A stretch of 64,000 nt of DNA from an uncultured Pelagibacteraceae bacterium (GTDB lineage: Bacteria; Pseudomonadota; Alphaproteobacteria; Pelagibacterales; AG-422-B15), in assembly GCA_902622985.1 (NCBI GenBank), contig CACNSH010000002.1, positions 124,001 to 188,000 on the forward strand. The letters run 5' to 3'. Every line of letters starts with the position of its first letter. Position 1 is the stretch's first letter. The translations under genes and the position numbers were made by a program. A model generated the notes under the pieces. That model did not search any database and had not been told where the DNA came from. It saw only the letters and a program-made list of their open reading frames with translations. Positions 12,164 to 22,730 of the stretch are shown one piece after another.

Positions 12164-12358
12164 ATGGATAAATTTTCAAAAAGTTCAGAAACGGTTTTTG
12201 ACTATAAAGATATATCAAGTCTTAAAAGGTTTATTTCAGAAAAGGGAAAAATTACACCAAGAAGAATAAGCTATATTTCCATTAAAAAACAAAAAGACCT
12301 CTCTAATGCGATAAAGAGAGCTAGATATCTTGCCCTTTTACCCTATACCGGAAAATAA
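12164..12358 (+). CDS. rpsR: 30S ribosomal protein bS18, short N-terminus
   Basis: bS18 pairs with bS6 on the 30S platform. The core is clear: [19 protein letters not shown], then PRRIS, then [16 protein letters not shown]. The protein is only 64 residues. The basic start FRRRKxCxF usual in bacterial bS18 is replaced by [15 protein letters not shown] codon (12158-12160) lies two codons before the ATG in the same frame, so the gene cannot be extended upstream. Position in the canonical operon argues that it is the genuine bS18. The stop is one base from the rplI ATG. Confidence 0.92.
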
Positions 12359-12359
12359 T

Positions 12360-12806
12360 ATGCAAATAATTTTGTTAGAAACACTCAATAAACTTGGTAA
12401 AGCAGGTGAAGTTGTAAGCGTTAAAGATGGATTTGCAAAAAATTTTTTAATTCCTCAAAAAAAAGCAATTATAGCTAATAAGAAAAATTTGAATGACCTC
12501 AATTCAAAAATGAGTCAAATCAATGAAAATAATATGAAAAAGATTTCTGAGGCAAATGAGCTAAAAGCTAAGTTAGACGGTAAAGAAATTAATATCCAGA
12601 TGGAAGCAAATGAAGACGGTAATCTTTATGGCAATCTTGGTCCAAGGCAAATCCGTGATAGGCTGATAAATGATTTTTCTATAGATATTGAGCCTGGAAA
12701 TATTGTATTAGATAATATAAGTGCAATAGGAAGTCACGAGGTCACCGTAAGAATTTATGATGATATAAGCGCTTCACTCAAACTAGAGATAACAAAAAAA
12801 ATCTAA
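12360..12806 (+). CDS. rplI: 50S ribosomal protein bL9
   Basis: bL9 binds 23S rRNA near the L1 stalk and spans toward neighbouring ribosomes. The N-terminal domain MQIILLETLNKLGKAGEVV with DGFAKNFLIPQKKA is diagnostic, followed by a long helix and the C-terminal domain. The start is placed at 12360, one base after the rpsR stop, because bL9 proteins begin with M-[QK]-[VI]-ILL; an in-frame ATG at 12330 would add ten foreign residues. The result is 148 residues, as expected. Confidence 0.95.
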   Translation: MQIILLETLNKLGKAGEVVSVKDGFAKNFLIPQKKAIIANKKNLNDLNSKMSQINENNMKKISEANELKAKLDGKEINIQMEANEDGNLYGNLGPRQIRDRLINDFSIDIEPGNIVLDNISAIGSHEVTVRIYDDISASLKLEITKKI

Positions 12807-17960: not shown

Positions 17961-18467
17961 ATGAATTTAGATCTTGCTCAGTTATTGAATCCTTATGATC
18001 TTATTTTTTTATTAGTTATCTTAGTTTCTTTTATATTTGGAGTAAAAAATGGATTAATAAAAAGCTTATTAAATCTTATAAAATGGATAGTTATCTTTTA
18101 TTTAATAAAAAATTGTTTTGATATTTTAAGGCCGTTCTTTGACCAATATATACTTAATCAAACTCTTTCTGATATACTGATATTTTTCTTCACTTTAATT
18201 ACAGCCTATATCTTAATATCATTTATTAATCGTATGATTATTGGAATATTACAACCCAGGAAATCTTTGTTTATTGATATGTCCTTCGGTGGTGTTCTTG
18301 GAATTTTACGGGGATATATAATTTTTATTCTTATAATTTTTTTCATAAATAGTAATTTTTCCTCCAATTTAATACCAGAGATTATTAAATCAGGTACTTT
18401 TCAAGAGATAGTAAATTATGGGGTTGATCTACTTGATCAAATGCCAAGGAATATTAATGAAATTTAA
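17961..18467 (+). CDS. cvpA: CvpA family membrane protein
   Basis: A 168-residue protein with four predicted helices (about 15-30, 35-52, 65-85, 100-125) in the CvpA arrangement, including FGVKNGLIKSLLNLIKW near the N-terminus and GGVLGILRGYIIF before the last helix. CvpA proteins affect colicin V export, envelope stability and, in some species, bile or stress tolerance; the molecular role is unsettled. In many alphaproteobacteria purF follows cvpA, but here an SDR comes directly after it. Confidence 0.83.
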   Translation: MNLDLAQLLNPYDLIFLLVILVSFIFGVKNGLIKSLLNLIKWIVIFYLIKNCFDILRPFFDQYILNQTLSDILIFFFTLITAYILISFINRMIIGILQPRKSLFIDMSFGGVLGILRGYIIFILIIFFINSNFSSNLIPEIIKSGTFQEIVNYGVDLLDQMPRNINEI

Positions 18468-18483
18468 TTTAATACATTAAACC

Positions 18484-19176
18484 ATGAAAAAACTTAACTG
18501 CCTTGTAACAGGTGCGTCCTCAGGTATAGGAAAAGAGATCTCAATAGAGTTATCTACCTATGCTAAACATATATACATATGTTCTCAAAATATACAAAAA
18601 CTTGAAATTGTTCACGATAAAATAATTGAAAATAATTGTGAGTGTACAATTGTGCCTCTAAATTTATGTGATGAAAATGTAATTGAGAATTTGGCTAAAC
18701 AAATACAGGTCAAAGATACTTCCTTGGATATATTAGTTCTTTCAGCAGGAATTATTAACGAACTTTCTCCTGTTGAGTCAATTGATCTAGAAAATTTTAA
18801 AAATATTATAAACTTGAATTTCTTATCAAATTTTAGAATGGTTAAAAGTTTTCATTCATTACTCAAAAGTTCAAATAATGCCTATATAGCTGCAGTTTCT
18901 TCACTAAAAGACCCTTCAAAAGAATATTACTGGGGCATTTATCAGCCTATTATGACAGCGTTAAATGAGCTTTTATTAACCTATTCAAAAGAAAACAAAG
19001 GTACAAATATAAAAACAAATATTTTTTGTCCACTTGCTGTTAATACAAAACTTAGAGATGTCGTAATGCCTGGCGAAGATAAATCTAAGATAAGTGATCC
19101 AAAAGATATAGCTGTTAAAATTGTAAATTATATTTTAGAGGCAGACGGTACAGGAGAAATAATCGAAATCAATTGA
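18484..19176 (+). CDS. Short-chain dehydrogenase/reductase-like protein, catalytic Lys replaced
   Basis: A 230-residue Rossmann protein with a clear cofactor motif TGASSGIG (residues 9-16) and LSAGI where classical SDRs have NNAG. The catalytic Ser (139 or 140) and Tyr153 are present, but the YxxxK motif reads YQPIM, so the lysine is Met157. The PG motif after beta-6 is PLAVNTK. An SDR gene after cvpA (and purF) is common in alphaproteobacteria. Loss of the lysine suggests an altered or non-catalytic role, perhaps only nucleotide binding. The end overlaps der by 8 bases tail to tail. Confidence 0.8.
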   Translation: MKKLNCLVTGASSGIGKEISIELSTYAKHIYICSQNIQKLEIVHDKIIENNCECTIVPLNLCDENVIENLAKQIQVKDTSLDILVLSAGIINELSPVESIDLENFKNIINLNFLSNFRMVKSFHSLLKSSNNAYIAAVSSLKDPSKEYYWGIYQPIMTALNELLLTYSKENKGTNIKTNIFCPLAVNTKLRDVVMPGEDKSKISDPKDIAVKIVNYILEADGTGEIIEIN

Positions 19177-19984
19177 TATAAGGATTTTTTGAAGTTTTGA
19201 AGTCATACAAAATTGGTACACCATCAAGTTTGAAATAGCTTCTAAAAGAGTTATCAAAAAATTTTTGAAATAATTGTGGTGGTTTTTTCTGAATGTTTAT
19301 AAATATTTTAAACTTTGGAATTTTATTTTCTAATTGAACAATATACTTTGGTTTTATTTCTATTTTATTAAATCGTGGTAACGTTGATCTTTTGTTCAAA
19401 TAGTTAATAAATTTGTTTAGTTTTTGTTTATTAATTTTTATCGATATCAATTCTTTTTTTAGTATAATTTCTTTTAAAACATTTGATATTCTTGTATTAT
19501 TTTTTGCAGAAATAAAATCAATATTAATTAATTTGTGTTTACTATAATTATTACGTAGATGTTTTTTGATATTTAACTGGTATTTTCTTTTATCATCAAG
19601 AATATCGACTTTATTAAATAAAAAGAATAGAATTTTATGTTTGCTTAATGCTAAATCTGCAAGACGAAAATCTTGTCTTGTAATACTTTCTAGTGAATCG
19701 ATTAAAAGCACTGTGACATCAACATTATTTATTATTTTAATAACTTCTAAATTTCGAGCCAATTCATGCTCTTCTTTAACTTTACTTCTTCTACGCAGCC
19801 CAGGCGTATCAACGATAATAAATTCGAAATTTTTGTGAGTAAATTTTTGTTTAATGAGAGATTTTGTTAATCCATATTCATCACCAACAGGTGAAATATA
19901 CTCTCCGAGCAATGTATTAAATAATGTTGATTTTCCAGAATTTGGCTTTCCAATAATGCCTATATTAATTTTACTTAAATTCAT
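19169..19984 (-). CDS. der: Der/EngA GTPase with a single G domain plus KH domain
   Basis: Der is an essential 50S assembly GTPase, normally about 440-490 residues with two tandem G domains and a KH-like domain. This protein has 271 residues and one G domain: G1 GKPNSGKST (12-20), G2 Thr40, G3 DTPG (59-62), G4 NKVD (124-127), G5 ISA (158-160). The segment DTPGLRRRSKV matches the second G domain of Der, and the C-terminal part (about 180-271, ending in KNPY) matches its KH domain. So G domain 1 is absent. The gene keeps its usual place after bamB and starts inside it by 14 bases, so no missing half lies upstream. Confidence 0.85.
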   Translation of the reverse strand: MNLSKINIGIIGKPNSGKSTLFNTLLGEYISPVGDEYGLTKSLIKQKFTHKNFEFIIVDTPGLRRRSKVKEEHELARNLEVIKIINNVDVTVLLIDSLESITRQDFRLADLALSKHKILFFLFNKVDILDDKRKYQLNIKKHLRNNYSKHKLINIDFISAKNNTRISNVLKEIILKKELISIKINKQKLNKFINYLNKRSTLPRFNKIEIKPKYIVQLENKIPKFKIFINIQKKPPQLFQKFFDNSFRSYFKLDGVPILYDFKTSKNPYIN

Positions 19985-21269
19985 AAACGTTGGAGTTTTC
20001 GTCAGACAAATAAATTGAATCAGACAGGATTATAGGTGGGACCAATGCACCTTTAACACCGATTGACTCAGTTAAAAGTATTTCGCCTGAGATAGGTGAA
20101 ACTACTTTTAACTCACCAAAATACGAAATATTATAAATTAAATTATTTATTAAATAAGGACCAAGCCAAAGATTTAAATTTTCAGTCTTTTGACCTTTTT
20201 TATACTTTGACAGTTCAGTAATCCAGTAAACCTCTGAACTGTCTTTGTTCAAACAAATTAATTTTCCATCTTCGTTAATAACATATATTTGATTCCCTGT
20301 AATAATTGGCGTTCTATATCCTGACAAATCTTTCGCCCAATTTCTCTGTCCGTTAGTGGCATTAACAGAGACAAGCTTTCCATTTGAGCTCAATGAATAA
20401 ATCGTATTGTTTGATACCACAGGGCTTGCTGATATATCTTTGATATCAAAGTTGCTGACCATTGATATTTTTGAAACATTTTCTGACCAGATGGGCTGGC
20501 CAGTATCAAAAATAAAAGCTACGAGCTCTCCGTTGCTAAAAGGAGCAATAATTGTATTTTCGAATGCTACTGGAGATGAGGTAAATAAATTTTTCTTTGT
20601 TTCTGAAATTGTTTGAAATGACCAGTTAACTTCTCCATTTATCACATTAATTGAAAAAATTCTGTTATCAGCTGAAATAAAATATATGTATCCTCTATAT
20701 ATAAGCGGTGGCGATAAAATTGGATATTCTATTTTTGTTGACCAAATTTCTTTGCCATCTTCAGAATTTAATAATTTTATTTGACCGTACCCATCAACAA
20801 ACACTAATTGATTATCAAAATAAGCAATTCCACCTCTAACAATCTCATATTTTTTTATTCCCTCAATTCTGACATCTACTTTGAACAATGTTTTTTTTGT
20901 TCGGGTATCTACACATTCAATATAGCCATGGCTTAATACATGGCACAGATTATCGTTAAAAAATATGGGTTGTATAATATTTACTGGTCCTTTTTTACCC
21001 GAAATAATTTTTGATCTGTCGTTAAAAGAGGCATCTGAATAAATATTATCTAGATCATTTGATGGATTCAAAAAATGCTGAGACCAAAAATTTACTTCTT
21101 TTGGTTCATTTATCAGTATGTCACCAGGATCAAGATTTAGAGTTTCAGAGATTTCTGCACTGTAACTTAAAACAGGAAAGCCACTGGCAGTTTCATTGAT
21201 TTCTTCATTCCCGGAACATGAAATAAGAAAGAAAGATATAAATAAAAATATATATGATTTGTTGAACAT
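19971..21269 (-). CDS. bamB: Outer-membrane assembly lipoprotein BamB-like (PQQ beta-propeller)
   Basis: BamB is the propeller subunit of the BAM complex that folds outer-membrane barrels. The 432-residue protein has a lipoprotein signal ending in the lipobox LISC with Cys18, then repeated PQQ-like blades with W-x-x-x-L/V and GxV/I-YF-x-D patterns. It sits in the order panB-yfgM-bamB-der, the usual context. It starts one base after the preceding gene's stop and overlaps der. Together with SurA and LptD in this window it points to standard BAM-dependent outer-membrane assembly. Confidence 0.88.
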   Translation of the reverse strand: MFNKSYIFLFISFFLISCSGNEEINETASGFPVLSYSAEISETLNLDPGDILINEPKEVNFWSQHFLNPSNDLDNIYSDASFNDRSKIISGKKGPVNIIQPIFFNDNLCHVLSHGYIECVDTRTKKTLFKVDVRIEGIKKYEIVRGGIAYFDNQLVFVDGYGQIKLLNSEDGKEIWSTKIEYPILSPPLIYRGYIYFISADNRIFSINVINGEVNWSFQTISETKKNLFTSSPVAFENTIIAPFSNGELVAFIFDTGQPIWSENVSKISMVSNFDIKDISASPVVSNNTIYSLSSNGKLVSVNATNGQRNWAKDLSGYRTPIITGNQIYVINEDGKLICLNKDSSEVYWITELSKYKKGQKTENLNLWLGPYLINNLIYNISYFGELKVVSPISGEILLTESIGVKGALVPPIILSDSIYLSDENSNVYEFK

Positions 21270-21270
21270 A

Positions 21271-21903
21271 CTAATCTATGATTTCAATAAATTTGTTAGC
21301 TCTTATTTTAATTTCTACAGGGACATCTGGAGTATCAATTAAATTCTGGAAATTTTTTTTACTTTCTTCATTTTTTCCAAGAATAAGCTTTTTAAATGAA
21401 ATAAGTTCATTAAATAGATATTTGAAGTTACTATCACGCATTCTGTCATCAGTGAGATAGCTCATAAATTCTTCTTCGCTCGAATTATCAATTTTTAATA
21501 AAAGTAAAAAATATATTGCTAAATCTGCAATTATTGGAACATATTTTTCATCGTCAGTTAATTTTTCTAAATCAAGAATCCCATCTTTAATATTACCATT
21601 TTCTATCTTTAAATTTGCAATTTTTAATTCAGCTATACTTGATATATATTTGTTGTTAGAGTTAATAAGCTCATCTAATAAAGAGTATTGTTCTGAAATG
21701 TTTTTGCTGTTTGTTGCTTTAATATATGTTTCAATGAGTTTTTCATTATTTGATTTCTCAATTGAAACCATTACTTGATATCCGATAATTGACCCTATTA
21801 TGATCACTAGAGTTAAAATTACATATAAACCGTATCTTTTAAAAAGATTAGACAGTTTTTCTTTTCTTAAATCTTCATCGACCTGTCTTAAAATATCGCT
21901 CAT
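21271..21903 (-). CDS. YfgM-like tetratricopeptide membrane protein
   Basis: A 210-residue protein with a cytosolic N-terminus (SDILRQVDEDLRKEKL), one transmembrane helix (about 25-46) and a periplasmic helical repeat region. This is the layout of YfgM/TPR_21 proteins, which in E. coli associate with the SecYEG translocon and PpiD and act as periplasmic chaperone partners. The location directly before bamB supports the assignment. Its start shares one base with the end of panB. Confidence 0.8.
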   Translation of the reverse strand: MSDILRQVDEDLRKEKLSNLFKRYGLYVILTLVIIIGSIIGYQVMVSIEKSNNEKLIETYIKATNSKNISEQYSLLDELINSNNKYISSIAELKIANLKIENGNIKDGILDLEKLTDDEKYVPIIADLAIYFLLLLKIDNSSEEEFMSYLTDDRMRDSNFKYLFNELISFKKLILGKNEESKKNFQNLIDTPDVPVEIKIRANKFIEIID

Positions 21904-22730
21904 TAATCTTTACCGTTATTACTTACGATCTGTGGACGCATATGATAAATATGGTCTGATGAAGGAAAAGTTCTATCTTTAACTTCTTCAGCATACTTGC
22001 TTACAGCTTTCTTAATAGTGTTATCTAAATCGACATATTTTTTTACAAATTTTGAAGCAACATTTGTTAATCCCAACATATCTTCTGTTACTAATATCTG
22101 ACCATCACAATTTGGAGATGCTCCTATTCCAATAGTAGGAATGTTTAAAATTGAAGTTATTTCTGCGGCTAATGGCTCAGCCATGCCCTCTAAAACCACT
22201 GAAAATGCTCCCGCATTTTCAACAGCAACTGCATCATCGATATATTTTTGCCACTCAGATTTTACTTTTCCTCTTACTTTATAACCTCCATCTATCAATA
22301 CACTCTGCGGTTGAAGACCTATATGGCCCATTACGGGAATTGAGCTTTTTGTAAGATGTTCAATTGTTTTGTACATTTTTTGTCCGCCTTCTAGCTTAAC
22401 ACCGTTGCAATTAGTTTCTTTCATAACACGGGCTGCATTCATAAATGCTTTTTCAACAGATTCTTCATAGGTTCCAAATGGCATATCAACAATTACACAA
22501 GATTTATTTGAAGCTCCAACAACAGACTTCGCATGCTTAATCATTTGCTCAAGCGTAACTTGAAGTGTATTCTCATAATCATAAAGAACCATCCCGAGCG
22601 AGTCTCCAACCAACATTAAATCAACCTGTTCGTCAATAGCTCTAGCAATTGGTGCCGTATATGCAGTTAGACATACAATTGGACTCTTTCTTTTGAGTGA
22701 TTTTATATCATTAGCTGATTTTCTTAACAT
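21903..22730 (-). CDS. panB: 3-methyl-2-oxobutanoate hydroxymethyltransferase
   Basis: First committed enzyme of pantothenate synthesis: adds a hydroxymethyl group from methylene-THF to 2-oxoisovalerate. The 275-residue protein shows ITAYTAPIAR-like N-terminus (here LTAYTAPIAR), metal-binding VGDSLGMVLY, and GHIGLQPQS and IGIGASPNCDGQ. All expected residues are present. No panC is seen in this window. The pathway feeds CoA and the ACP prosthetic group. Confidence 0.96.
   Translation of the reverse strand: MLRKSANDIKSLKRKSPIVCLTAYTAPIARAIDEQVDLMLVGDSLGMVLYDYENTLQVTLEQMIKHAKSVVGASNKSCVIVDMPFGTYEESVEKAFMNAARVMKETNCNGVKLEGGQKMYKTIEHLTKSSIPVMGHIGLQPQSVLIDGGYKVRGKVKSEWQKYIDDAVAVENAGAFSVVLEGMAEPLAAEITSILNIPTIGIGASPNCDGQILVTEDMLGLTNVASKFVKKYVDLDNTIKKAVSKYAEEVKDRTFPSSDHIYHMRPQIVSNNGKD

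Follow-up and report, generated by a model that had tools for sequence, protein, structure and literature searches.

The window analysed here is a stretch of 64,000 nucleotides from an uncultured Pelagibacteraceae bacterium. An original prediction, made from the letters of the window, placed a 271-residue reading frame at 19169–19984 and read it as a Der (EngA) GTPase that has lost its first G domain. The frame is confirmed, and its strand, which the prediction left unstated, is minus. It lies in the row panB-TPR-bamB-der(271)-SDR-cvpA, with these parts and neighbours:

19169..19984, minus strand: one-G-domain Der (GD2-KH) of 271 aa, from its ATG through the stop; aligned to TIGR03594 at 175-432, with Pfam MMR_HSR1 and PF14714 both over cut-off
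19463..19963, minus strand: G domain of the GD2 type, residues 8-174, assigned by profile, domain HMM scores and tree
19928..19951, minus strand: G1/P-loop GKPNSGKS with Asn N15, from the alignment of single-domain Ders
19196..19438, minus strand: EngA-type KH-like domain, residues 183-263; PF14714 at 49.5 bits (cut-off 27.3), all 81 positions
19971..21269, minus strand: bamB (PQQ beta-propeller); its 3' end shares 14 bp with the der start
21271..21903, minus strand: TPR-like protein, next gene upstream of bamB, presumably YfgM-like; TPR_21 and DUF2659 each barely over cut-off
21903..22730, minus strand: panB, ketopantoate hydroxymethyltransferase (PF02548)
18484..19176, plus strand: short-chain dehydrogenase (SDR), convergent with der, 8 bp overlap; from ORF position and profile scan
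17961..18467, plus strand: cvpA (PF02674)
12330..12806, plus strand: rplI (bL9), context only (PF01281 and PF03948)

Der consists of two tandem G domains (GD1 and GD2), is among the highly conserved bacterial GTPases and is considered essential in bacteria. The window protein has one G domain. As predicted, it carries a single full set of G1–G5 motifs (GKPNSGKS, T40, DTPG, NKVD and SAK), and G12, K13, P14, N15, G17, K18 and S19 are invariant in 15 of 15 aligned single-domain Ders; we take N15 to be a K+ ligand. The KH-like C-terminus described at the outset also stands, but not its supposed end in NPY: the last residues are NPYIN, so that NPY is near the end and not last. The 14 bp common to both genes bear out that der starts inside bamB. 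The open frame around der is 286 aa long and therefore leaves only 15 codons upstream of the ATG, all within bamB; a missed start is rejected, in agreement with the earlier view that the missing domain is not simply mis-annotated upstream. Between the end of bamB and the start of GD2, GD1 and the linker are missing, while recognisable G1–G5 motifs and an EngA-type KH domain remain.

Aligned to the Der model TIGR03594, the protein scores 209.7 bits. The curated equivalog cut-off is 306.7 bits, and a score beneath it is expected, since the protein covers 258 of the 432 model positions. MMR_HSR1 scores 78.5 bits. Membership of another GTPase family, with Era and YihA named beforehand as candidates for a better match, was ruled out: the Era profiles fall below their cut-offs (TIGR00436, 63.1 versus 116.25; NF000908, 83.0 versus 237), MnmE reaches 58.7 bits and YsxC/YihA 51.5, and Era is a separate gene.

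To distinguish the two G domains, one HMM each was made for GD1 and GD2. The 30 loci tried had yielded 28 two-domain Ders, of which two from family f23 were excluded and 26 entered the HMMs. All 17 single domains score higher on the GD2 model, by 28.7 to 73.5 bits, and the window protein by 73.5; Era and MnmE of the window's own genome score slightly higher on the GD1 model. A tree of 69 domains, with f23, Era and MnmE omitted, sets GD2 and all 17 single domains against GD1 with support of 95/95. An AU test leaves the single domains on the GD1 side unrejected (p = 0.365), and in a preliminary tree with 75 rows the long branches grouped together and MnmE fell with GD2. The assignment of the retained domain to GD2, and with it the proposed loss of the first G domain, is supported by the profile, the HMM scores and the KH domain, which carry the argument, and less firmly by the tree. 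The predicted fold is the GD2-KH of solved Ders. In the AlphaFold model (33 rows, mean pLDDT 83.7, pTM 0.81), some stretches of both switches, I and II, fall under 50; the first 18 PDB structure matches of the model are Der/EngA chains, including mt-EngA, with TM by query of 0.73–0.83 (top match YphC on the 45S particle, 0.81), and the first 10 PDB sequence matches are likewise Der/EngA.

Within the window's genus, 29 of 36 genomes, its own included, hold a match under 1e-40. The gene lies in an open frame of 277–289 aa in 28 of the 36, and G026 has a 158-aa piece; the remaining seven genomes, 55–91% complete, hold no match under 1e-40. Three single-contig genomes of other genera (G036, G040 and G069) have the same one-domain gene. 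An assembly error, against which the prediction had to be checked, is very unlikely, since many assemblies carry the same gene. In the window's own genome, which is 87% complete at 1.30 Mb, PF14714 matches once, in the gene itself, and a second full-length der was not found there. Its ten MMR_HSR1 matches are ObgE, YchF, MnmE, HflX, Era, IF-2, EF-Tu, an ABC ATPase, a protein that we take from its sequence to be EF-G, and the window gene. A search for a separate Der G1 elsewhere, suggested with the prediction, found no detached GD1 among these ten matches of the 87%-complete genome. The other matches of G036, G040 and G069 lie in frames sized like MnmE, Era and YchF, identified only by that size.

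The survey of the order covered 155 genomes, all at least 90% complete except G000. None of the 155 reaches the TIGR03594 cut-off, which again yields no full-length der. PF14714 is present in 22; in 133, single-contig ones included, no Der KH domain was found. GD2-KH matches running from profile position 169–174 to 423–432, in open frames of 269–287 aa, occur in 19 genomes, and in three the gene is cut or broken (G026, 158 aa; G071, 139 aa; G059, two frames). Among the rows printed by genus, PF14714 is present in g1 (10/11), g7 (1/1), g8 (1/1), g2 (2/2), g4 (3/3) and g5 (5/5), and absent from g9 (0/1), g10 (0/2) and g11 (0/1). By subtraction, none of the other 128 genomes has it; where their genus is printed, it is g3 or g6. 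A second profile, made from the nearest one-domain Ders (family f2, alignment A3) and 272 model positions long, was run on 24 genomes of g3 (17), g6 (3), g9 (1), g10 (2) and g11 (1), seven of them single-contig, and gave no match past position 207. The controls all matched over 266 positions or more: G060, G000 and G019 are not part of A3, whereas G036, G040 and G069 contributed rows to it and so had to match. The one-domain Der is thus found across the order and is not an isolated deletion, and in other genera no der was found.

Hidden two-domain Ders in frames of 443–476 aa, in g3 and others, were considered and rejected, as the four scanned (G104, G057, G064 and G071) are all MnmE. In G059 (g7), at L061 positions 1140-1986 on the minus strand, the G domain and the KH domain of der occupy separate frames, which marks either a pseudogene or an assembly error. 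The 24 genomes of g3, g6, g9, g10 and g11 also lacked any match in a frame of Era size (275-290 aa), and Era may be missing or very divergent in them, as judged only by frame size; such a frame was seen, or Era is known, in G000, G019, G060, G023, G036, G040 and G069.

The locus was compared in relatives by finding bamB by search and naming the other genes by eye. Three genomes with the one-domain gene, G040, G036 and G069 (L106, L111 and L114), read panB-TPR-bamB-der with purF convergent. In G064 (g10, L110), panB-TPR-bamB is followed by a convergent purF, almost touching, with no der between; in G063 (g9, L105) bamB faces cvpA; and in g3, where five of eight fetched loci were read (L107, L108, L113, L115 and L117, with L109, L112 and L116 left out), bamB is followed by cupin-like and ZapE-like genes, without der. 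The place behind bamB is kept by the one-domain gene in two families. A single-cell (SAG) record of the OCS116 cluster (L120) reads TPR-bamB-der-SDR-purF around a two-domain Der with a 445-aa frame and 506.8 bits. TPR-bamB-der-SDR is thus common to the window and this one two-domain record, in line with the claim that the usual neighbours are kept, and loss, not a primitive one-domain state, is the natural reading. A further record, L119 (PBVH01000004.1), holds a one-domain gene 55% identical to the window's in a row that reads by eye panB-TPR-bamB-der-SDR-cvpA-RND-alr-dnaB, as in the window. It is titled a Flavobacteriales MAG; gene order and sequence are like those of the window's family, and the title looks wrong.

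The relatives were placed with the 16S probe SAR11-441R, given in the available part of PMC5604061, allowing up to 2 mismatches. Of 42 genomes tested it matches 16, all of them among the 24 of f2 (8 exactly), and none of 12 in the window's family f1 or of 6 outgroups. By that mark f2 is SAR11. The site is absent from the f1 16S (G000 and G019), which is 83.7–85.1% identical to four f2 16S; f1 belongs to the same order as f2 and is not itself claimed here as SAR11. In the class control, 183 of 193 genomes are over the Der cut-off, those under it being G000, G036 and G037 of the order, G202, and six without a match at 1e-40 (G244, G276, G309, G313, G320 and G341). In the phylum control, 393 of 396 are over it, the exceptions by table reading being G000, G036 and G313. 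A contig profile scan, in which 28 of 80 kept loci were read, gave 27 two-domain Ders and the one-domain L119. G313 (f109), a genome of the class with 1.2 Mb and a listed completeness of 100%, shows only a partial G-domain match, in a frame of 304 aa.

A different state is found in a neighbouring order, that of G202, where 16 of 60 genomes are above the Der cut-off, all of f108. Two aligned f108 Ders have NKxD in both domains. In f23, the family of G202, the Der scores are far lower, over the whole length: GD1 keeps its P-loop and D[TS]PG but lacks NKxD and, by alignment, SA at G5 in 15 of 15 proteins read, whereas GD2 has all five motifs in the same number, with a tail without NPY.

For all 12 pairs compared within g1, g4 and g5, NG86 dN/dS lies at 0.035–0.132, the values being rough for the four pairs with dS above 1. 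These ratios indicate that relatives of the window gene are under purifying selection. Conservation was followed at the 36 positions where 26 two-domain GD2-KHs agree to 85% or more. In each of the two one-domain families, four of them (30, 61, 186 and 241) are kept by under half of the rows; four others fail in f1 only and five in f2 only. Retained are the P-loop, NKxD, the Thr of switch I and, in DxxG, the D and the G. Of the four positions lost in both families, one falls in G3 (residue 61, the Ala of DTAG) and none in G1 or G4 or at the switch I Thr. A GD2-KH tree does not join one-domain f1 and f2 in one clade, and an AU test does not reject holding them together (p = 0.479). Since the same 98/97 group also takes in the two-domain families f108 and f23, which are AT-rich and in part long-branched, this tree is no guide to the number of losses. 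The similar cut point in f1 and f2 suggests one GD1 loss.

The ribosomal RNA of the L1 stalk was also compared, with helices H76–H78 at what we take to be their positions. Measured between a landmark ahead of H76 and GTTTGACTGGGGC, the 23S stretch has 158 nt in 9 genomes and 159 in G299, and G188, missed by that landmark, has the same look by eye. A loss of H78 as in bacteria of the Candidate Phyla Radiation (CPR) was rejected, since none of the 11 genomes has a shortened H76–H78 stretch. Where the L1 stalk begins, at its base, five f2 loci (L214, L215, L217, L218 and L219) read GCATAGGAGG...ACCTCT, and the window's genome and three outgroups (L212, L220, L221 and L222) read GGATAGGTGG...ACCAC; the difference looks like a paired change.

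GD1 has been proposed to reposition relative to GD2 and the KH domain. On the ribosome, according to the available text of PMC13278734, GD2 occupies the P site, KH points toward the peptidyl-transferase centre (PTC) and GD1 lies by the L1 stalk. The accessible portions of PMC3466195 attribute the activity of the whole B. subtilis enzyme to GD1; GD2-KH is 150-fold less active, both are stimulated by K+, and GD2-KH binds nucleotide with micromolar KD. The T. maritima GD2-KH keeps about a third of the activity. The same portions report preferential 50S binding of GD2-KH with GMPPNP and 30S binding of KH alone, and also say that both domains are needed for ribosome interaction and in vivo function; with E. 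coli G4 mutations, either domain is dispensable at 42 degrees and both are needed at 30. Der mutations dependent on L9 are spoken of in the available part of PMC4399890.

The window gene is very probably the lineage's der, cut down in the course of evolution to GD2-KH. The protein would bind GTP with K+ on GD2 and would dock like full-length Der, with GD2 in the P site and KH toward the PTC of a late 50S precursor, to be released after GTP hydrolysis on the same GD2. Ribosome binding by this GD2-KH is what we infer. From the reported placement of the three domains and the GD2-KH biochemistry, the one-domain Der may be read as a placeholder for the P site and PTC that works with one switch, GD1 being dispensed with and presumably unnecessary as a switch. 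Against this explanation, the GD2-KH of E. coli or B. subtilis may not suffice alone, the window's genome is 87% complete, and the two frames of G059 and the genera without der may mean that the gene is losing importance. In other genera of the order, the gene would later have been lost altogether. The degenerate GD1 beside an intact GD2 in f23, together with a one-domain der or none in the order, suggests that Der was dismantled from GD1 onwards. A stepwise course in SAR11 and its neighbours is likely, from decay of GD1 (f23) through its drop (the window's family; g2, g4 and g5) to removal of the gene (g3, g6, g9, g10 and g11).

If the GD2-KH were instead a decaying remnant of little function, on its way to deletion, the lack of a Der KH domain in the examined genomes of g3, g6, g9, g10 and g11 and the gene broken in one g7 genome would fit. 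Such decay is nevertheless improbable in view of the low dN/dS in all 12 pairs, the loss of just 4 of 36 conserved positions in both one-domain families and the open frames in 28 genomes of one genus. About equally improbable is a changed job, for instance away from the ribosome or, in the manner of Era, on the 30S subunit. The 30S binding of KH alone, reported in the accessible part of PMC3466195, speaks for it, as do the changes in the window protein of DTAG to DTPG and of GTTRD to GLTKS. Against it, a separate Era exists, the KH domain scores as EngA-type and the place behind bamB has been kept in two families. That GD1 is encoded elsewhere and works in trans is less probable still, with hardly any chance of being right: the own genome is just 87% complete, which leaves some room for such a split, but all ten of its MMR_HSR1 proteins are accounted for, none being GD1, and the other matches of G036, G040 and G069 fit the sizes of MnmE, Era and YchF.

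If this stepwise dismantling of Der is true, some of the most abundant free-living bacteria finish their 50S subunit with one Der switch or with no Der, GD1 is the dispensable half, and Der itself is conditionally dispensable outside CPR. A natural one-domain Der under selection, beside related genera in which der was not found, offers a direct test of why Der needs two switches. The loss of der suggested here extends beyond CPR to free-living, ecologically important bacteria with L1-stalk RNA of normal length in the genomes compared. The literature on Der, EngA and ribosome assembly with SAR11, Pelagibacter or Pelagibacterales, as searched with most subscription journals and supplements outside, described neither a Der with one domain nor any loss of der from SAR11. 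In their available parts, PMC4198247 names engA only as a marker gene and PMC3478194 has 'der' within author names, neither being relevant, and the accessible main text of PMC12641178 is without 'Pelagi', 'SAR11' or 'HIMB'.

Compared with known systems, the window protein is closest to Der/EngA (TIGR03594), with which it shares the GD2 and KH domains, motifs, locus and predicted fold; Der differs in having GD1 and the linker, as in the 445-aa frame of L120 against 271 aa here. Era consists of one G domain and a KH domain and is of similar length, but its two models score just 83.0 and 63.1 bits where the Der model reaches 209.7, and the genome has its own Era gene besides. The f23 Der resembles the window Der in its intact GD2 motifs and abandoned GD1, and differs in that a degenerate GD1, without NKxD and SA, is still there and the C-terminal NPY is absent. 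CPR classes without der, some of which have also lost or shortened uL1 or H78 (available part of PMC12641178), are like this order in being der-less bacteria with small genomes; unlike them, the order has a GD2-KH gene in some genera and keeps the length of H76–H78 in 11 genomes. The two-domain Der is the known form, and GD2-KH is known as a construct, a natural counterpart being the form for which no report was found. The B. subtilis EngA GD2-KH (accessible portions of PMC3466195) has the same domain content as the window protein, obtained there by cloning; it is artificial, with a GTPase 150-fold below that of GD1, whereas the window's is a natural gene under selection.
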